Of a stretch of DNA of 32,754 nt, positions 5,438-13,956 are shown piece by piece. Made by a program: the position numbers and the translations under genes. The stretch is from PS1 clade bacterium. Lineage in GTDB: Bacteria; Pseudomonadota; Alphaproteobacteria; RS24. How positions within the stretch are numbered: position 1 is the first letter of the stretch; the number at the start of each line of letters is the position of its first letter. The notes below the pieces were generated by a model. It searched no databases, had not been told where the DNA came from, and was given only the letters and a program-made list of their open reading frames with translations. Location: the NCBI GenBank assembly GCA_003331985.1, contig QOQK01000009.1, forward strand, positions 1-32,754, read 5' to 3'.

Positions 5438-6307
5438 ATGCTAGATAAAAATTCGCAAGACCCCAATGAAACGCCAAGCGTAGCCCGTCCCATACCTGCC
5501 GTAACCGATAAAACTGAACGCGAGAAATGGCGGCGTCTTCCCTTTGACGGCCCCCGTAATTTCCGTGATATGGGCGGCTATATCAATCAGGACGGCAAGG
5601 CCGTCAAATGGGGTGTCATTTACAGAGCTGACCGGCTGTCTGCCTTGACCGACACAGATATGGATTATTTTAAAAGACTTAATATTCGTAAGATTATCGA
5701 CTTTCGTTCAGATCATGAGAGAAAAGAAGCCCCTAGCCGCACGGATACGCTGGAAGATACCCAGACCTTATGGATGGAAGTTTTTGAGGGCGGCGCTTTT
5801 GTTGAAGATATGTGGCGCAGTCTTTTCAGTGGTGATTTATCAGACGCCAGCCATCTGCATGATATGATGAAAACCGCCAATCGCCGCTTCGTCAGTCACC
5901 ATAATAATGTTTTTGCCAATTTCTTTAAGCTACTGCTTGAAGATGAGAATATTCCCCTGCTGTTTCACTGTATGGGCGGTAAAGACCGCACAGGTTTTGC
6001 CGCAGCGATGATTTTATCTGCTCTTAAGGTGCCGGAAGACACTATTATGAAAGATTATTTGCTAACGAATACACTCACAGCAGCCTCCACAGAAATTCGC
6101 AAGAAGAACCTCAAGGAGCGTCTTGAGCGAGACATCGCGGATGATTTGTTGGATGCGGTTATGAAAGTTCAGGCAGATTATCTGAATGCAGGTTTCGAAA
6201 CCATTCAAGAAGAGTATGGTTCTGTCGAAAGTTTCCTCAAGGAAGGCCTCGAACTTGGTCCCGCTGAATTGGAAGAGTTGCAAAAGCGCTACCTCACGGC
6301 AGATTAA
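5438..6307 (+). CDS. Tyrosine-phosphatase-like protein (IphP/MptpB type)
   Basis: The 289-residue protein carries the cysteine-phosphatase signature HCMGGKDRTG, with nucleophile Cys178 and Arg184 in the C-x5-R loop. The KDR form of the loop is typical of the bacterial IphP/LipA/MptpB group, some of which also act on phosphoinositides. Further family features are RNFRDMGGY near residue 40, GVIYRADRLSALTDTD, and the IDFRS element near residue 90. No signal peptide or membrane segment is seen, so it is probably cytoplasmic. It begins 77 bp after tetR with no clear ribosome-binding site. Its stop overlaps the stop of the convergent ferredoxin gene within a shared TTAA. The substrate is unknown. 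Confidence 0.88.
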   Translation: MLDKNSQDPNETPSVARPIPAVTDKTEREKWRRLPFDGPRNFRDMGGYINQDGKAVKWGVIYRADRLSALTDTDMDYFKRLNIRKIIDFRSDHERKEAPSRTDTLEDTQTLWMEVFEGGAFVEDMWRSLFSGDLSDASHLHDMMKTANRRFVSHHNNVFANFFKLLLEDENIPLLFHCMGGKDRTGFAAAMILSALKVPEDTIMKDYLLTNTLTAASTEIRKKNLKERLERDIADDLLDAVMKVQADYLNAGFETIQEEYGSVESFLKEGLELGPAELEELQKRYLTAD

Positions 6308-6621
6308 GCGCCCATATCAACATAAATTTCTTCATTTTCAATTTTGACCGGAAAAACCCGTATCGGTTTTTTTGTCAGGGCACCAATCGGTGAACCGTCT
6401 TTTAAATCAAACCTCTGCCCATGAAGCGGACAGAATATGAAACACCCACGAATACGCCCGCCTTCAAGTGGCTGGAGTTGATGTGTGCACATATTTTCAA
6501 CTGCGTAAATATCATCCACAGTTTTGCAAATCAGAACCGAAACACCATTTAAATCAAAGGCTCGGTTTTCATTTTCTGCGAGGGTATCAACCCCAGTTGC
6601 CAAGACAAAATTATCAGACAC
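6304..6621 (-). CDS. Rieske [2Fe-2S] ferredoxin
   Basis: A 105-residue small Rieske protein of the type that passes electrons to ring-hydroxylating oxygenases. Cluster ligands are visible as C45-x-H47 (CTH) and C64-x2-H67 (CPLHG). The start codon is GTG at 6621, supported by AGGAG six bases upstream. It is the last gene of a leftward run after the CoA-transferase and acyl-CoA dehydrogenase genes, 20 bp downstream of the latter. By context it could feed the Rieske oxygenase encoded at 9162 or the second one at 28102, but no ferredoxin reductase is encoded in the window. An alternative is the small subunit of a NirD-like reductase, less likely given its sequence and neighbours. Confidence 0.9.
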   Translation of the reverse strand: MSDNFVLATGVDTLAENENRAFDLNGVSVLICKTVDDIYAVENMCTHQLQPLEGGRIRGCFIFCPLHGQRFDLKDGSPIGALTKKPIRVFPVKIENEEIYVDMGA

Positions 6622-6641: not shown

Positions 6642-7805
6642 TTACTGAGCACGTTGATTGAATCGTCGACCCACCATTGCGGAGGCTATATTCACCTTCT
6701 GAATATCAATAGCACCTCCAGCAATTCCCCAGCCCCATGAGTCACGCATCCGACGTTCCATATTAAAATCCTTCGAATATCCATAAGCTCCCATCATCTG
6801 GACAGCGTTAGATGTTACTTCGCGGGCAATTTCATTGGCAAAACATTTTGCTACTGAGGAGTCGAGAATACTCGGTAGATTATCTTCAGCATTTGAAGCA
6901 GCACGATGTATCAACAGGCGTGCCGCTTCTACACGCATCTGCATTTCCGCCAGCCTAATCTGTACAGCCTGAAAATCGACAATTGGTTTACCGAATTGTT
7001 TGCGGTCCTGCACATAGGTCATCACCTCTTCAAGCGCACCAGATGCCTGACCCAGTGCCATAGTGGCATTGCCGCAACGCTCAAGATCAAATGCTTCCAT
7101 CAGTTTTTTAAACCCACCTGCCGGAACAATAATATTTTCCAACGGTACTTCAGCGTCATCCAGGAAAATGTCACAGGATGGAACACCGCGGAAGCCCATA
7201 AGACTTTCCTGCTGACCGAAAGATATGCCCGGCGCATCTTTTTCGACAAAAACGGCACCAATGCCTTTGGCACCCGGATCATCGGACAAACGGCAATATA
7301 CAACATAGCCATCCGCATGACCGCCGCCGGAACACCATCTTTTTAACCCGTTCAAAATCACCTTGTCATTTGTTACGCGGCCTTTGGTTTTCAAATCAGT
7401 CAAAGCCGAGCCAGCATCCGGCTCGGACATAGCAACCGCAACAATCATATCGCCAGAACAGACTTCAGGAATGACCCTTTTCTTCAGGCTCTCTTCGGCA
7501 AAATGCTCAATCGCTTTAACCGGCCCGACACACGACTCGAAAACAGGAAATGCAATGGCTGATGATATTTTGGCAAATTCTTCAAGCACAATCAGCGCGT
7601 CGATATTACCGAGACCAAGCCCGCCATATTCTTCAGGCACATTAATGCCCAAAAAGCCCATCTCGCCATATTTGCGGATGAGTTCATGGGTCGGGGGTGA
7701 AGCTTCTGTCTCACAAATTTGTGCAGCTTCGGGTAATTCGGATTTTGCGAAATCTCTGGCGGTTTGTTGAAATGCCTGCTGATCATCGGTTAATTTGAAA
7801 TCCAT
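6642..7805 (-). CDS. Acyl-CoA dehydrogenase
   Basis: This 387-residue flavoenzyme belongs to the family that introduces an alpha-beta double bond into acyl-CoAs. The family layout is complete: an N-terminal helical domain, the MSEPDAGSALTDLKT FAD-binding strand, DRKQFGKPI, and the C-terminal MMGAYGYSKDFNMERRMRD. The usual medium-chain catalytic Glu, in the YEGT position near the C-terminus, is replaced in IAGGA. Instead Glu242 in AFDLER sits where isovaleryl-CoA and long-chain dehydrogenases keep their base. A branched or bulky substrate is therefore plausible. The ATG at 7805 has GGGAG upstream. It lies 16 bp after the CoA-transferase gene and 20 bp before the ferredoxin gene, in one operon. 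Confidence 0.94.
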   Translation of the reverse strand: MDFKLTDDQQAFQQTARDFAKSELPEAAQICETEASPPTHELIRKYGEMGFLGINVPEEYGGLGLGNIDALIVLEEFAKISSAIAFPVFESCVGPVKAIEHFAEESLKKRVIPEVCSGDMIVAVAMSEPDAGSALTDLKTKGRVTNDKVILNGLKRWCSGGGHADGYVVYCRLSDDPGAKGIGAVFVEKDAPGISFGQQESLMGFRGVPSCDIFLDDAEVPLENIIVPAGGFKKLMEAFDLERCGNATMALGQASGALEEVMTYVQDRKQFGKPIVDFQAVQIRLAEMQMRVEAARLLIHRAASNAEDNLPSILDSSVAKCFANEIAREVTSNAVQMMGAYGYSKDFNMERRMRDSWGWGIAGGAIDIQKVNIASAMVGRRFNQRAQ

Positions 7806-7821
7806 GATATCTCCCTATCGG

Positions 7822-9024
7822 CTAGATAATGCCTTGTGCTTCGAGTTCTTCAATTTGAGCCTCGGACAACCCAAGCTCACTTAAAATTTCTGCATTATGC
7901 CCCCCAATTTCCGGTGGCGCGGTTGGCGCATTGGGAGTTAATGATGAAAATTGTGCCGGCAGACCCAGAACAGGGGCAAATGTACCCTCCATTCCATTGA
8001 CAGCAACAGATGTAAAATAAGACATGGCATCGACCTGCGGATTGTCAAGAGCTTGCTGTAGCGACAAAACAGGCCCACTGGGCACACCCTTTTCCTGCAG
8101 CATTGATAATGCCTCCGATGTTGTTCGCTGTGCACACCACGTAGCCATGATGTCGCATAAAACATCATTATGGTCGCCACGGTGCTGATCAGACTGAAAC
8201 CGATCATCTTCTACAAGCTCGGATTTACCGACAGTCTCTGCCCATCGTTTGAACAAATTATTACCCACTGTATGCACCAGAATATGCCCGTCCGATGTTG
8301 CAAAAACATCTGAGGGTGCAGAGGTCTGCACACGATTACCTGTTCCGACACGGTTAATTCCAGTAACACCCTGTTCAATGAGATGCGCATTCATCACAGC
8401 CAGCGCCGTATTTAACAAAGATGTCTGAACATGCTGGCCTTGGCCGGTCTTTTCACGTTCCATCAGGGCAGCCATGGTTGCAAAGGCAGACATCAATGCT
8501 GTCGCATAATCGACATAAGGTGCGCCAGCCTTGGCAGGATTTCCGGGGGTTCCGGTGAGGTACATCGCGCCAGACATCGCCTGGCCGATACCATCAAAGC
8601 CGCCCTTTGTGCTGTCTGGACCTATATCACCAAACCCGGTCTGGGTCACTAGAATCACCTCAGGATGGCTTTGATAGAGTGTTTCCCAGTCCAAACCGAG
8701 GCGTTTAAGTGCCGCCGGTGGCAAATTGGCGACCACAATGTCTGCCGTAGCAACTAATTTGCCTAGAATCTCACGCCCACTTTCGTCAGATAAGTTGAGT
8801 GAAAGTGATTTTTTGCCCCATCCAGTTTGGTATATCAAACCGCCCTCTCCAGGCTGCCCGCTATCATCAAATGAAAGGGGCGAAATAAATCTATCCTCAC
8901 CACCATCAGGGCGCTCAACCCGAATAACATCCGCCCCAAGCGCACCTAGAAGTGTTGCGCAATAAGGTCCTGCGACATAACGGCCAATATCGACAATTCT
9001 TATATTTTCTAGAGGTTTAGACAT
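7822..9024 (-). CDS. CaiB/BaiF family (class III) CoA-transferase
   Basis: The protein moves CoA between carboxylic acids through an aspartyl-CoA intermediate. The N-terminus LENIRIVDIGRYVAGPYCATLLGALGADVIRVE, abbreviated here as the AGP and GADVIRVE blocks, is the family hallmark, and Asp172 in PYVDYATA aligns with the catalytic Asp of formyl-CoA transferase. From the ATG at 9024 it has 400 residues, the usual length. A longer frame reaches 9228 but would overlap the divergent oxygenase gene and adds sequence unlike the family, so I reject it. It heads the leftward operon with acyl-CoA dehydrogenase and ferredoxin, so its job is probably to activate the acid that the dehydrogenase then oxidises. 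The acid itself is not identified. Confidence 0.93.
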   Translation of the reverse strand: MSKPLENIRIVDIGRYVAGPYCATLLGALGADVIRVERPDGGEDRFISPLSFDDSGQPGEGGLIYQTGWGKKSLSLNLSDESGREILGKLVATADIVVANLPPAALKRLGLDWETLYQSHPEVILVTQTGFGDIGPDSTKGGFDGIGQAMSGAMYLTGTPGNPAKAGAPYVDYATALMSAFATMAALMEREKTGQGQHVQTSLLNTALAVMNAHLIEQGVTGINRVGTGNRVQTSAPSDVFATSDGHILVHTVGNNLFKRWAETVGKSELVEDDRFQSDQHRGDHNDVLCDIMATWCAQRTTSEALSMLQEKGVPSGPVLSLQQALDNPQVDAMSYFTSVAVNGMEGTFAPVLGLPAQFSSLTPNAPTAPPEIGGHNAEILSELGLSEAQIEELEAQGII

Positions 9025-9090
9025 ATATTCAAACTTACAGTGAGTTGGTGCTTTTGTAATAACTCTTTCCATAAAAGTGAACTGGTATGA

Positions 9091-9119
9091 TTGAGAGTTA
9101 TATACAATTTCTTTATATG
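9091..9119 (+). promoter_or_regulatory. Possible sigma-70 promoter for the 9162 oxygenase operon
   Basis: TTGAGA at 9091-9096 and TATATG at 9114-9119 are separated by 17 bp, matching the -35 and -10 consensus at five and four of six positions. They lie in the 137-bp divergent gap between the CoA-transferase and the oxygenase. Nothing else clear was seen in the gap besides near-copies of ACACTGAGTT at its two ends. Confidence 0.4.
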
Positions 9120-9161
9120 TATGGATACCTACACTGAGTTTTTTCATATTTAGGATATCAA

Positions 9162-10397
9162 ATGGACGCTGCACGCATTGAATCTTTAGAAAAAGGTATG
9201 GCATACGAGCAGTCCCGTGAAGGGCCACCCCCGGGATTTCCTAAATTGCCGCCAATACCTGCAAAAAGGTACACAGATCAGGCTTTTTTTGAGCTTGAAA
9301 TAGAACACCTTTGGAAAAAAAGCTGGCTCTATGCTTGCCATATGGATGAATTGCTTGAACCGGGCAGTTTTTATCTCTGGGAGCGCATCGGATCGCCGAT
9401 TTTTATCGTGCGCGGAAGAGATGATAAATTACGCGGTTTCTATAATACCTGCCGTCATCGTGGTGCCCCGGTTGTGCGAGAGCAAACTGGCCGTCGTAAT
9501 CTTTTTGTATGCACCTATCATGGCTGGTCGTATGACGATAAAGGACATCTAATTAATATGCGTGACCCGCGCGACTTCCCGGATTTTGACAAGTCCTGTC
9601 ACAGTCTGGTTGAGGTCGCTGTTGAAGTTTTCGGCAAAATGGTTTTCGTCAATCTTGATAAAGAGGCAAAGCCACTGATGGATTATCTCCATCCCGTGCC
9701 AAGAGATATGGCGCAGTTCCAGAGTGAAAATATGCGTCTCGTCCGTAAAACAACATTGGATATTAAGTGCAATGTTAAAATCCTATTGGATGCATTTCAG
9801 GAAACATATCACCTAAAGTCTATTCACCAAAAAACAGTTGATAGATTTCTTGATCATCTGGGCACTCATATTGAACTTTGGCCTAATGGTCATTCGCGCA
9901 TGGTTACCCCACATCGGGATCCTGATTGGGTTGATCCGGGCGTAGAAGGTTTACCCGAAGTCGAGACTGTCGGCGAAGTCGGGCGTATAAATAATTTCTC
10001 TTATAATATTTATCCCAATATTGTCTGCCCGCCTTATGCCAGTGGCAACTCGTTAATTATCTTCTGGCCGAAAACAATTAACACAATGGAAATTGAAGTC
10101 ATCTGGGTTGCACCGGATTGGGGGGATGGGCCTTTATCAGATGTCTGGGATACCCGCCTTGGGAATTTTGATAAAATTCTGGAAGAAGACACTCAATTTG
10201 CTGAACAAATTCAAATCTCAGTTGAGTCTGACGGCTTTCAAGGTACGCCACTTTCTTATCAAGAAAGACGCATCTATCACTGGCATGAACATCTTGATAG
10301 ACTTATAGGCGAAGAAAATCTCCCGGAAGGTACGCGTATTGAGCCTCTAATGGAGCCATATATTATGGATCCTTACGCCTCCGAAGCCGGGGAATAA
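9162..10397 (+). CDS. Rieske non-heme iron oxygenase, alpha subunit
   Basis: The 411-residue oxygenase has an N-terminal Rieske domain with C97-x-H99 (CRHRG) and C117-x2-H120 (CTYHGW), and a C-terminal mononuclear-iron domain with DAFQETYHLKSIH, where H217 and H222 are iron ligands. The residue that bridges the two centres is Glu214 rather than the Asp of naphthalene dioxygenase; this is known from the CntA carnitine-oxygenase subgroup. AGGA six bases upstream supports the ATG at 9162. It opens a rightward operon with an HMGCS-like/DUF35 fusion, a thiolase and an SDR, and is divergent from a CoA-transferase operon that ends in a Rieske ferredoxin. No beta subunit or reductase gene is nearby. 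Substrate unknown. Confidence 0.93.
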   Translation: MDAARIESLEKGMAYEQSREGPPPGFPKLPPIPAKRYTDQAFFELEIEHLWKKSWLYACHMDELLEPGSFYLWERIGSPIFIVRGRDDKLRGFYNTCRHRGAPVVREQTGRRNLFVCTYHGWSYDDKGHLINMRDPRDFPDFDKSCHSLVEVAVEVFGKMVFVNLDKEAKPLMDYLHPVPRDMAQFQSENMRLVRKTTLDIKCNVKILLDAFQETYHLKSIHQKTVDRFLDHLGTHIELWPNGHSRMVTPHRDPDWVDPGVEGLPEVETVGEVGRINNFSYNIYPNIVCPPYASGNSLIIFWPKTINTMEIEVIWVAPDWGDGPLSDVWDTRLGNFDKILEEDTQFAEQIQISVESDGFQGTPLSYQERRIYHWHEHLDRLIGEENLPEGTRIEPLMEPYIMDPYASEAGE

Positions 10398-10407
10398 AGG
10401 ATATCCG

Positions 10408-11856
10408 ATGGGACAGTTCGGGCTTACGGCATATGGCAGCTATTTGCCATTTCAATCAATTTCGCGTCAGGCTATTTTTGACCAGATTGGTTGGATTCAA
10501 GGTGGCCTAAAGGCTTATGCTAAAGGTAAAAGAAGTTATGCCGATTGGGATGAAGATGCCGTAACGCTTGCCGTTGCTGCCGCCCGCCAGTTGCTGAACA
10601 CTACCGATGCCGCCCAAGTTCAAAATCTCAGTTTTGCTTCGACCACAGCCCCGTTTCTTGATCGTTCTAATGCAGGCATTGTGGCGGCTGCACTTGATTT
10701 AGCTGACCGCACGCATTGCCATGATTCATCAGGCAGTCAACGGGCAGCCCTCGCTCCACTTGTGGCGGCCTGCCATAATCAAGGCGATGGTTTGCTGATT
10801 GCTGCCGGAGAGAAAAAGCCTGTTCAACCGGCAAATGTAATGGAGATGCTCGCCGGTGATGCTGGCGCCGCCGTGCTGACAGGGTCTGAAAATGTAATCG
10901 CAGAGTTGATTGCCGCCCAATCCGTTTGCTCAGATTTTGTGGATCATTACCGTACAGCAGAAAGTGGTACGGATTATGTTCTGGAAGAGCGCTGGGTTCG
11001 TGAGGAGGGGCTTGCAAAAATTGCAGCGCCACTCATTGCGTCACTTTTGGCAGACAATAATATGAGCGTTGAGGATATTGACCACTTTATTCTTCCTGTC
11101 GCTTATCCTTCCCATGCGCGCGCTATTGCGCGGACATGCGGCATCAAAGAAGATGCTGTTGCGGATGCCCTGTTTACAGATTGTGGTTTCTCTGGTGTCG
11201 CACATCCTTTACTTATGCTGAATGATTGCCTTGATCGCGCAGCGCCAAACAGCCTAATTTTATTGACAGGTTTTGGTCAGGGAATGGATGCCATTCTTCT
11301 TAAAACGACTGAACATATAAGCAGTTATAAGGCCTCAATCTCGGTGCAGGACTTTATGACCAATCTACGGGTTGAAGATAATTATCCGCGCTTCCTCGCT
11401 TCTAACGGGCAATTTCACCCGGATTGGGGGATGCGCGCTGAACGTGATAATCGAACCGCGCAAACTGTTGCTTTTGACAAAAGCCGCGATATTTACGGTC
11501 TTGTCGGCGGATTTTGCACCTCATGTCAGACACCTCAATTCCCCAAAGCCAGACGATGCGTGAACCCCGAATGTAATGCGCTTGATACCCAGCAGGATTA
11601 TCGTTTTGCCGATATACCTGCCACCGTGAAATCTTTTACGGAAGACTGGATGGCCTTTAACAGAAACCCGCCACTGATTTACGGGAACATCTCCTTTGAA
11701 GGCGGCGGCAATATGTTCATTGAAATGACAGGATTTTCGCCCGGGGACATTGCCATAGGGGACAAAGTCGAGATGGATTTCCGTATCAAGGATATTGACG
11801 ATAAACGTGGCTTCCATAGATATTTTTGGAAAGCTGCCGCTAAGAGAAAAATGTGA
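10408..11856 (+). CDS. HMG-CoA-synthase-like protein fused to DUF35 zinc-ribbon/OB domain
   Basis: Residues 1 to about 330 follow the archaeal-type HMG-CoA synthase/KAS III fold (for example LLTGFGQGMDAILL near the end of that domain). Residues about 365-480 are a DUF35 unit with zinc ribbon CTSCQTPQFPKARRCVNPEC, followed by an OB fold. In archaea separate HMGCS, DUF35 and thiolase proteins form a complex that channels acetoacetyl-CoA. Here two are fused and the thiolase gene follows after 15 bp. The active site looks lost: where the nucleophilic Cys is expected there is HCHDSSGS (Cys104 displaced, Asp106 in line), and the catalytic His position is Pro230 in FILPVAYP. A scaffolding or acyl-CoA-binding role with the thiolase is a fair inference. 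Confidence 0.82.
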   Translation: MGQFGLTAYGSYLPFQSISRQAIFDQIGWIQGGLKAYAKGKRSYADWDEDAVTLAVAAARQLLNTTDAAQVQNLSFASTTAPFLDRSNAGIVAAALDLADRTHCHDSSGSQRAALAPLVAACHNQGDGLLIAAGEKKPVQPANVMEMLAGDAGAAVLTGSENVIAELIAAQSVCSDFVDHYRTAESGTDYVLEERWVREEGLAKIAAPLIASLLADNNMSVEDIDHFILPVAYPSHARAIARTCGIKEDAVADALFTDCGFSGVAHPLLMLNDCLDRAAPNSLILLTGFGQGMDAILLKTTEHISSYKASISVQDFMTNLRVEDNYPRFLASNGQFHPDWGMRAERDNRTAQTVAFDKSRDIYGLVGGFCTSCQTPQFPKARRCVNPECNALDTQQDYRFADIPATVKSFTEDWMAFNRNPPLIYGNISFEGGGNMFIEMTGFSPGDIAIGDKVEMDFRIKDIDDKRGFHRYFWKAAAKRKM

Positions 11857-11871
11857 GGCGAGAGGGCTAAC

Positions 11872-13071
11872 ATGGCTGAAGGCATAAAAGATAAAGTTGC
11901 TATTATCGGCATGGGCTGTAGCAAATTCGGCGAACGATGGGATGCACGCCCCGAAGATCTCATTACTGAAGCCTTTGAAGAAGCGCTGGTGGATGCCAAG
12001 ATTGAAAAAGAAAGCATAGACGCAGCTTGGTTTGGGGTTTTTTATGACGAGCAAAATGTCGGCAAATCTGCTTATCCGCTGTCACAATATTTGCGCTTGC
12101 CTAACATTCCCGTTACCCGCGTGGAAAACCTTTGCGCGACCGGAACTGAGTCCCTGCGCGGCGCAGTATACGCTGTAGCCGCTGGCGCATGTGATATCGC
12201 GCTTGCTGTCGGATGTGAGAAATTAAAAGATACAGGATTTGCCGGCCTTCCCGAAAGAACAAAAGGCACATTTGAAGACCTTTATCAGCCTGGCTTCACG
12301 CCGCCAGGCGCTTTTGCACAACTCGGCGCTGCCTATGCGCATAAATACGGGTTGGACATGGCAGACCTTAAAAAGGCAATGGCGCATGTTTCATGGAAAA
12401 GCCACGAAAACGGATTTTTGAACCCGAAGGCGCATCTCCGCAAAAAGCTGAGCATTGAACAAATTCTGAATGCTCCACCGGTTGCTTATCCGCTCGGTGT
12501 GTTTGACTGTTGTGGCGTTTCTGATGGTGCATCATGCGCGATTGTCGCCCGCCCGGAAATTGCCAAAGATCTTGTCGGTGAAAATTTTGTTACTGTGAAG
12601 TCCATGCAACTATCACCCTCTAATGGTGTTGAAATGGGACATCAATCATGGGACGGCGCCGGAACAATCACGACGCGCAAAGCCTCAGAGCGCGCTTATG
12701 CCGAGGCCGGCATCAGTGATCCACGCACGGATATTAGCATGACCGAAGTCCATGATTGCTTCTCTATTACCGAGCTAGTGTTGATGGAGGATCTGTGGCT
12801 TTCAGATGATGGCATGGCCCCTAAAGATATTCTTGATGGCAGATTTGACGCTGACGGCGACATTCCCTGCCAGATTGATGGAGGTCTGAAATGTTTCGGT
12901 CACCCTGTCGGCGCATCGGGCTTGCGGATGACCTATGAAATTTATCTGCAACTACTGGGCCGCGCCAATGACCGCCAACTTAAAGATCCCAAATTCGGGC
13001 TGGCGCATAATCTCGGTGGTATTCCAAACAGAAATGTTGCAGCAGTCTCAATTTTTGGGATGAACGAATAG
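11872..13071 (+). CDS. SCP2/SCP-x-type thiolase
   Basis: The 399-residue protein belongs to the thiolase-like group related to the thiolase half of sterol carrier protein X and archaeal acetyl-CoA acetyltransferases. The nucleophilic Cys88 is visible in ENLCATGTESL, then EVHDCFSITEL, and GGLKCFGHPVGASG with Cys341 and His344. Members cleave or form beta-ketoacyl-CoA, and some act with DUF35 partners on steroid or branched side chains. It follows the HMGCS-DUF35 fusion by 15 bp and precedes an SDR by nine, so all belong to the oxygenase operon. The catalytic set here is intact, in contrast to its neighbour. Physiological direction is probably degradative given the dehydrogenase and CoA-transferase next door, but this is inference. 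Confidence 0.92.
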   Translation: MAEGIKDKVAIIGMGCSKFGERWDARPEDLITEAFEEALVDAKIEKESIDAAWFGVFYDEQNVGKSAYPLSQYLRLPNIPVTRVENLCATGTESLRGAVYAVAAGACDIALAVGCEKLKDTGFAGLPERTKGTFEDLYQPGFTPPGAFAQLGAAYAHKYGLDMADLKKAMAHVSWKSHENGFLNPKAHLRKKLSIEQILNAPPVAYPLGVFDCCGVSDGASCAIVARPEIAKDLVGENFVTVKSMQLSPSNGVEMGHQSWDGAGTITTRKASERAYAEAGISDPRTDISMTEVHDCFSITELVLMEDLWLSDDGMAPKDILDGRFDADGDIPCQIDGGLKCFGHPVGASGLRMTYEIYLQLLGRANDRQLKDPKFGLAHNLGGIPNRNVAAVSIFGMNE

Positions 13072-13080
13072 GATAGTTAT

Positions 13081-13956
13081 ATGTCAGACGAAAACCAGCC
13101 CCTTCAGTCTTCTGAATATGGAGGCATGTCTATTGAAGAACTCGCGACTGCCTCAACCGTATATCGTGAAGATTTGCTTGACGGGCAGACCATTGTCATT
13201 TCCGGCGCGGGTACAGGTATGGGACGCGCCATGGCTTTTCTTGCTGCGCGACTGGGGGCCAAGGTAGTGATTTGCGGTCGTCGCGAGGAGAAGCTCAAAG
13301 AAGTCAAAGACGGCATCAAGCAACATGTCGGGCGCGATATTGAATATGCCTTAGTGAACATCCGTGATCCTGAAAATGTTGAAAGTTTCATTACTGATAT
13401 TTTTAACCGCCACGGCACCATTCACGCCCTGATTAACAGCGCCGGCGGGCAGTTTTCCCAGGCTGCGATTGATTTCTCGCGCAAGGGTTGGCTTGCCGTG
13501 GTTGATACCAATCTGAACGGCACATGGTGGATGATGCAAGAAGCCGCCAAAAAATGGCGTGATACCCGACAAGAAGGTAATATCATTAATATCGCAGCCT
13601 ATGTGGAACGTGGCATGCCGCAATCGGCGCATAGCTGTGCGGCGCGGGCGGGTGTGATTTATCTTTCGAAAACTGTTTCTACCGAATGGGCCGAACATAA
13701 TATCCGTGTGAATTGTATCGCCCCCGGCGCGATTGAAACCGAAGGCGTGACGCAATATCCGCCAGAAGCTTTACAGGAATTTCACAGGGCCAACCCAATG
13801 AAACGCCTCGGTGATGTCTGGGATGTGGCGGAGACAACAATTTATCTCGTCGCCCCCTCCTCAAAATTCGTTACCGGTGAAGTTATCACAGTTGATGGCG
13901 GTATGGCGCAACATGGCTGGGTCTGGCCCATGGGCAAGCCGGAATACTTCAAATAA
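13081..13956 (+). CDS. SDR oxidoreductase, 2,4-dienoyl-CoA-reductase-like, altered active site
   Basis: The 291-residue Rossmann protein has nucleotide motif SGAGTGMGRA near residue 41 and CGRREEK after strand two, the latter favouring NADP(H). NSAGG replaces the usual NNAG. Downstream, NIRVNCIAPGAIETEG resembles peroxisomal-type 2,4-dienoyl-CoA reductases. The usual Tyr-x3-Lys is replaced: the aligned segment is HSCAARAG, giving His and Arg. The dienoyl-CoA reductases also have His at the Tyr position but keep Lys. About 35 extra residues precede the Rossmann core. It is the last gene of the oxygenase operon, nine bp after the thiolase, and could reduce an unsaturated acyl-CoA. Activity is uncertain because of the Lys-to-Arg change. 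Confidence 0.86.
   Translation: MSDENQPLQSSEYGGMSIEELATASTVYREDLLDGQTIVISGAGTGMGRAMAFLAARLGAKVVICGRREEKLKEVKDGIKQHVGRDIEYALVNIRDPENVESFITDIFNRHGTIHALINSAGGQFSQAAIDFSRKGWLAVVDTNLNGTWWMMQEAAKKWRDTRQEGNIINIAAYVERGMPQSAHSCAARAGVIYLSKTVSTEWAEHNIRVNCIAPGAIETEGVTQYPPEALQEFHRANPMKRLGDVWDVAETTIYLVAPSSKFVTGEVITVDGGMAQHGWVWPMGKPEYFK

Follow-up and report, generated by a model that had tools for sequence, protein, structure and literature searches.

An HMG-CoA synthase-like/DUF35 fusion that lacks catalytic residues, a probable non-catalytic partner of an SCP2-type thiolase in bacterial catabolic gene clusters

Introduction

PhlABC is a dodecamer in which one cavity is lined by all three subunits and only the residues of PhlC act (PMC6392133). 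PhlA, the subunit that resembles HMG-CoA synthase (HMGCS), lacks the catalytic Cys and Glu, yet it lines the cavity common to PhlB and PhlC (PMC6392133), and activity requires the whole operon, the subunits being inactive when made separately (PMC6013524). PhlA was once proposed to be a chain-length regulator, and fusions of DUF35 to members of the thiolase superfamily were remarked on in 2010 (PMC2954200). A dead HMGCS-like subunit in a complex with a thiolase and a DUF35 protein is already known, as PhlA and MucA illustrate.

DUF35 also occurs fused to a MaoC domain, in which form it docks an SCP2-type steroid aldolase (PMC11321319, PMC12329534); the aldolases of this type replace the thiolase motif with YDHF or YDCY (PMC12329534). 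IpfDE yields propionyl-CoA and isobutylcatechol from ibuprofen in a pathway that includes a ring dioxygenase (PMC9195938, PMC11347016). Here we describe a gene pair of a PS1 clade bacterium in which an HMGCS-like domain and a DUF35 domain form one chain, encoded next to an SCP2-type thiolase.

Results

A first-pass annotation of the window (the whole 32,754-nucleotide stretch analysed here) had read the protein as an HMGCS fold fused to a DUF35 zinc ribbon and OB fold (Table 1), and the open reading frames, the NCBIfam HMGCS model PRK04262 and the matches of a family profile all agree with this. PRK04262 covers residues 4-314 (E=5e-35), with a score of 121 bits that lies far under the curated cut-off of 244. 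The DUF35 part scores 21 bits with PF01796, under the cut-off of 27.1, and because the OB domain is sub-threshold, Pfam by itself reports just ACP_syn_III_C for the fusion. When a family profile was built from 68 relatives, its C-terminal part matched the archaeal DUF35 protein 6esq_E (E=8.8e-13) and PhlB (E=1.1e-9), and its HMGCS-like part matched PhlA, the archaeal HMGCS and MucA. The HMGCS thiolase-superfamily fold is present in the AF2 model (pLDDT 91.3, pTM 0.93), with a TM of 0.87 to 6esq_I, and the top Foldseek matches of the model are PhlA (5m3k_A, 9skh), 6esq_I and MucA (9vbo). The zinc ribbon ligands are Cys370, Cys373, Cys384 and Cys389, and the complete Cys4 ribbon is found in 57 of 72 fusion relatives. 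Three or all four of these cysteines are missing in the other 15 fusions, which include those of loci L054, L098, L099 and L100; the four fusions with no zinc cysteine at all are encoded in MaoC/CoA ester lyase/BKACE clusters.

Table 1. Position and basis of the features of the fusion-thiolase locus, with the unfused counterpart of locus L103 (its own coordinates)
Feature	Coordinates	Strand	Basis
Rieske-type ferredoxin	6304..6621	-	PF00355; conserved in genus and Eilatimonas
Acyl-CoA dehydrogenase	6642..7805	-	Pfam; conserved in genus and Eilatimonas
Class III CoA-transferase, divergent	7822..9228	-	PF02515 E=1e-103; conserved neighbour
Rieske oxygenase alpha subunit, directly 5' of fusion	9162..10397	+	Pfam Rieske and Ring_hydroxyl_A; same place in Eilatimonas, Niveispirillum
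HMGCS-like/DUF35 fusion	10408..11856	+	482 aa ORF; PRK04262 and ACP_syn_III_C matches; AF2; Foldseek
HMGCS-like domain, residues 1 to ~310, without catalytic triad	10408..11337	+	6esq_I alignment
Gln111 codon, catalytic Cys equivalent	10738..10740	+	alignment
Pro230 codon, catalytic His equivalent	11095..11097	+	alignment
DUF35 domain, residues ~355-480, zinc ribbon and OB fold	11470..11847	+	profile matches 6esq_E, PhlB
SCP2-type thiolase, 399 aa, intact catalytic residues	11872..13071	+	NF004810; best solved relative 6esq_A
SDR oxidoreductase, directly 3' of thiolase	13081..13956	+	Pfam; conserved neighbour
L103 unfused trio	9087-9503, 9500-10510, 10514-11686	-	

The archaeal (Mt) HMGCS (6ESQ, chain 6esq_I) served as the reference for the catalytic positions, which are Glu82, Cys114, His238 and Asn270 in that enzyme. 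When 73 relatives were aligned with 6esq_I, PhlA and 9vbo, the corresponding residues of the fusion proved to be Thr79, Gln111, Pro230 and Phe261, and a pairwise HMMER alignment with 6esq_I gave the identical register at the Cys position. The first-pass annotation was exact in assigning Pro230 to the catalytic His and correct that the nucleophile Cys is missing, and the true equivalent of this Cys is Gln111 in GSQRA, not the SSG close by. A reading of CHDSSG, which would put a Cys or Asp near the site, was rejected because the GSQRAG / FACKAG register of the aligned family excludes it.

Most family members have T, then Q or L, then P, and then D or E at the four positions. The Cys position is Gln in 50 of 72 members and Cys in none; Leu, Arg, Met, Pro and Gly are among the other residues there, with the same thiolase kept, and 65 of 72 members have Pro at the His position. 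The catalytic Cys or Glu occurs in 0 of ~89 distinct relatives, and among 93 distinct rows, references included, 6esq alone has the catalytic E or C. An intact Cys-His-Asn triad had been named in the first-pass annotation as evidence against its reading; an alternative alignment that brings back the Cys or His was sought, and none was found. As judged from the alignment, the loss of the triad is neither chance nor sequencing error because it is family-wide. The first-pass annotation had offered an acyl-CoA carrier as one possible role; the variability of the nucleophile position argues against covalent carriage there. Several residues of the HMGCS half are near-invariant (Thr79, Pro82, Asp106, Glu193, Arg195 and His266) and Asp85 and Arg86 are likewise strongly conserved; the near-invariant residues point to a possible function beyond scaffolding.

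The adjacent thiolase is intact, as had been claimed: Cys88, the His294 and Cys296 of HDCF, and His344 (the His of GHP) are invariant in 76 of 76 thiolases. The protein scores 648 bits with NF004810 against a cut-off of 403, and its best solved match is the archaeal acetoacetyl-CoA thiolase 6esq_A (E=1.3e-56), the match to PhlC being much weaker. The fusion and thiolase reading frames lie on the same strand and in the same frame, with a gap of 15 nt. In each pairwise comparison the thiolases shared more identity than the HMGCS halves (mean 0.68 vs 0.47), the HMGCS half evolving much faster, as expected if the thiolase holds catalysis. The pairwise identity matrices of the two proteins correlate, with a rho of 0.82 between DUF35 and thiolase. 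The two proteins were also co-folded as a single chain, with the TGA read as Trp purely as a modelling device that implies no read-through; this model had a pTM of 0.69, and the thiolase was poorly modelled in it (many blocks with pLDDT 40-80).

Among 386 alphaproteobacterial genomes, the fusion was found in 69, or ~18% (73 with matches, less four in which the protein is unfused). With a threshold of E<=1e-80 the thiolase was found in exactly the same 69, with no discordant genome. The Fisher p of this co-occurrence, ~4e-78, is indicative only, the genomes being related and not independent. Of 72 fusion loci, 71 have the thiolase gene 3' of the fusion gene and in the same orientation, at a distance of <=150 nt in 65 and of 1.2-1.8 kb in six, and the lone unlinked locus (G366) has its thiolase on a separate contig. 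Joint inheritance of an operon also yields both co-occurrence and mirrored divergence. Pairs are carried on plasmids in Sphingobium, Variovorax, Rhodococcus and others. Four genomes of one family (G065, G189, G278, G351) have a second pair, located on another contig or replicon than the first. The view of the pair as a bacterial catabolic relative of the archaeal complex, with a dead HMGCS as thiolase partner, is upheld by the co-occurrence (69/69), the linkage and the genetic contexts; the pair is not peculiar to one bacterium, the fusion family being large and patchy in distribution.

In the four genomes with an unfused protein (loci L103-L106, from another alphaproteobacterial family), three separate genes occur in the order thiolase, dead HMGCS-like protein (~336 aa) and DUF35 protein (~140 aa; ~138 aa in L103), adjoining genes for an enoyl-CoA hydratase and a 3-hydroxyacyl-CoA dehydrogenase. 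The unfused HMGCS-like proteins already lack the triad, and the trio appears to correspond to the fusion-thiolase pair, with the two domains of the fusion on separate chains. The reading frames of the trio overlap in L105, where the exact gene limits are unsure. In the haloarchaeon Haladaptatus (L122, 4823-7410), a thiolase gene precedes one for an HMGCS-DUF35 fusion that bears the annotation HMG-CoA synthase; this fusion also lacks the active-site Cys and Glu and adjoins phenylacetate-type and UbiD genes.

Within the clade of the window, genomes of the genus, of Eilatimonas and of Niveispirillum share the gene order CoA-transferase, Rieske alpha subunit, fusion, thiolase and SDR. The class III CoA-transferase probably activates the substrate with CoA. 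Its mechanical ORF start overlaps the start of the divergent Rieske ORF (9162), and the true start is probably a later Met ahead of SKPLENIR. Further along the window, between 14803 and 31000, lie more catabolic genes, namely those for a PQQ dehydrogenase-like protein, a P450, a second PQQ-repeat protein and an E1 alpha/beta dehydrogenase, together with an M24 peptidase, a TonB receptor, two ABM monooxygenases, SnoaL-like and glyoxalase-like proteins, a second Rieske oxygenase and two SDRs; part of this set recurs in Niveispirillum and in Sphingobium RAC03.

The suggested link to Rieske genes holds for the clade of the window and for clusters of Variovorax, Rhodococcus and M. avium, but it is not universal, a recognised Rieske gene being present in 18 of 73 fusion loci. 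In Rhodococcus and M. avium the pair is found with Rieske alpha-beta, enoyl-CoA hydratases and a CoA ligase, and Variovorax has a similar gene set with a CoA-transferase and HADH. Rieske alpha/beta, a CoA ligase or CoA-transferase, enoyl-CoA hydratases and the pair recur together in L124, L127, L053 and L049, loci of Rhodococcus, M. avium and Variovorax plasmids, and would make up a pathway. The Sphingopyxis pair is accompanied by MaoC, CoA ester lyase, acyl-CoA dehydrogenase and BKACE genes, and the pair on plasmid p3 of Novosphingobium sp. ES2-1 (L052) adjoins an indolepyruvate ferredoxin oxidoreductase and acyl-CoA dehydrogenases. The L052 pair is divergent, and the same cluster contains a separate lipid-transfer-protein/OB-fold pair and a P450; the cluster presumably resembles estrogen-degradation clusters. 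These varied catabolic neighbourhoods mark the pair as a portable module of aerobic CoA-ester catabolism.

Discussion

We propose, with a probability of about 0.74, that the fusion unites the equivalents of PhlA and PhlB in one non-catalytic partner subunit of a complex in which the thiolase carries out the chemistry. This reading is based on the absence of the triad, the intact thiolase, the co-occurrence of the two proteins, their operon linkage and the fold. We infer a physical fusion-thiolase complex, the walling of its pocket, the thiolytic direction and the class of substrate. The DUF35 half would dock on the thiolase, and the assembly would probably be of an (AB)-C type, comparable with PhlABC and the archaeal thiolase/DUF35/HMGCS complex except that one chain unites A and B. 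The HMGCS-like half keeps its thiolase-superfamily fold without the nucleophile, the general acid/base and the catalytic Asn and, by analogy with PhlABC and the steroid enzymes, would wall the shared pocket or serve to bind the substrate, helping to hold the CoA ester. The reaction would be thiolytic retro-Claisen cleavage of a bulky beta-ketoacyl-CoA at Cys88/His294/Cys296/His344, which is the default reading because the motif is of the thiolase type and not of the aldolase type. For substrate and direction, the neighbouring genes are our sole guide: in the pathway of the window, the CoA-transferase would activate an acid, the Rieske oxygenase, acyl-CoA dehydrogenase and SDR would functionalise it, and the complex would cleave the product. 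One could also envision that the pair is no ordinary beta-ketothiolase and works instead as a CoA-dependent acylase, a catabolic counterpart of PhlABC able to remove acyl-CoA units from ring carbons oxygenated by the Rieske enzyme in a retro-Friedel-Crafts or retro-Claisen reaction, the dead half having evolved to bind the bulky ring part; we regard this extension as speculative and rather doubtful.

An alternative is that the HMGCS half has acquired a new active site, as a KSQ-like or chain-length-factor-like decarboxylase or gate with Gln for Cys, so that the pair would contain two different catalytic centres. Ketosynthase decarboxylases with a Cys-to-Gln change exist, the Cys position is most often occupied by Gln, and Thr79, Pro82, Asp85, Arg86, Asp106 and His266 are strongly conserved. 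The chain-length regulation once proposed for PhlA (PMC2954200) also fits such a role. We think that this is unlikely, however, because the same thiolase accompanies several other residues at the Gln111 position, because the His that KSQ enzymes require is mostly Pro, and because the HMGCS half diverges much faster than the thiolase. Quite unlikely, too, is a retro-aldolase or aryl deacylase of the kind represented by Ltp2-ChsH2, Sal-Shy and IpfD-IpfE. Aldolases do occur among DUF35-bound SCP2-type enzymes (PMC12329534), IpfDE is a precedent in a ring-dioxygenase pathway (PMC9195938, PMC11347016) and Rieske genes adjoin the pair in the window, but the aldolases carry YDHF or YDCY and, in Sal, Gly takes the place of the nucleophile, whereas Cys88 and HDCF are invariant here. 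IpfE was considered as a direct homologue of the fusion and set aside in favour of analogy only, since it is described as an IgrD-resembling OB-fold protein with the HMGCS part unmentioned (PMC11347016).

With PhlA and MucA as the closest relatives of known structure for the HMGCS half, the pair might be thought to be a biosynthetic C-acyltransferase, like PhlABC or MucABC, that acts on a small molecule. The odds of this are slim: the fusion family separates from the Phl/Muc rows with an SH-aLRT of 98%, and its HMGCS-like half does not clade with PhlA/MucA, in what was a quick tree search with long branches; the neighbours are oxygenases, CoA-transferase, acyl-CoA dehydrogenase and enoyl-CoA hydratases, not PKS or NRPS; and the thiolase is nearest to the archaeal acetoacetyl-CoA thiolase, with PhlC much weaker. 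That the fusion is a working HMG-CoA synthase (EC 2.3.3.10) of the mevalonate pathway or an HMG shunt is scarcely credible, despite family models that carry this name, because all four catalytic positions are altered family-wide and the scores are far under the curated cut-offs. HMG-CoA reductase was sought in five genomes of the genus (G000-G004) and none was found, whereas DXR is present, and this argues against any mevalonate or isoprenoid role. An active mevalonate HMGCS, which the sequence makes very unlikely, was rejected on the triad loss, the reductase absence and the presence of DXR.

In the literature searched we found no description of the A-B fusion as a family, of its strict association with a single type of thiolase or of its catabolic context, but only the remark of 2010 on DUF35 fusions (PMC2954200). 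The pair marks a probable enzyme complex that annotation conceals under names such as 'OB-fold domain-containing protein' and '3-oxoacyl-ACP synthase III C-terminal domain protein', and it flags a predicted C-C cleavage step in many catabolic clusters. As a two-gene system, it also makes testable the role of the non-catalytic HMGCS-like subunit in complexes of the PhlABC type.

The idea of a dead HMGCS-like part stands in that the triad is lost, but it has a precedent in the closest solved relatives, PhlA and MucA (PMC6392133). Like the window pair, PhlABC (5m3k, 9skh) has a dead HMGCS-like subunit (in PhlA the Cys is replaced by Gly115 and the Glu by Cys83), a DUF35 subunit and an SCP2-like thiolase with an active Cys88, and all of its parts are required. 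It differs in being encoded by three separate genes, where A and B are fused in the window protein; in being CoA-independent and biosynthetic, where the window genes lie in CoA-ester catabolic clusters; and in the residues of the dead site, which are Gln/Thr/Pro in the window protein. MucABC (9vbo, 9vbt) likewise has an HMGCS-like subunit in which the catalytic Cys and Glu are missing, but it consists of separate chains and carries out C-acetylation of a natural product. The archaeal acetoacetyl-CoA thiolase/DUF35/HMGCS complex (6esq, 6et9) shares the same three folds; unlike the fusion, its HMGCS is catalytic, its chains are separate and it belongs to the mevalonate pathway. The benzoylsuccinyl-CoA thiolase BbsAB (7pxp) is, like the window pair, a catabolic SCP2-type thiolase with a DUF35 partner, but it has no HMGCS-like part. 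In the steroid aldolases Ltp2-ChsH2 and Sal-Shy (6ok1, 9myr), a DUF35 domain fused to an enzyme-fold domain docks an SCP2-type enzyme, and the domain fused to DUF35 in ChsH2 is also non-catalytic; there, however, the fused partner is a MaoC domain, and the docked enzyme has an altered motif and acts as an aldolase.
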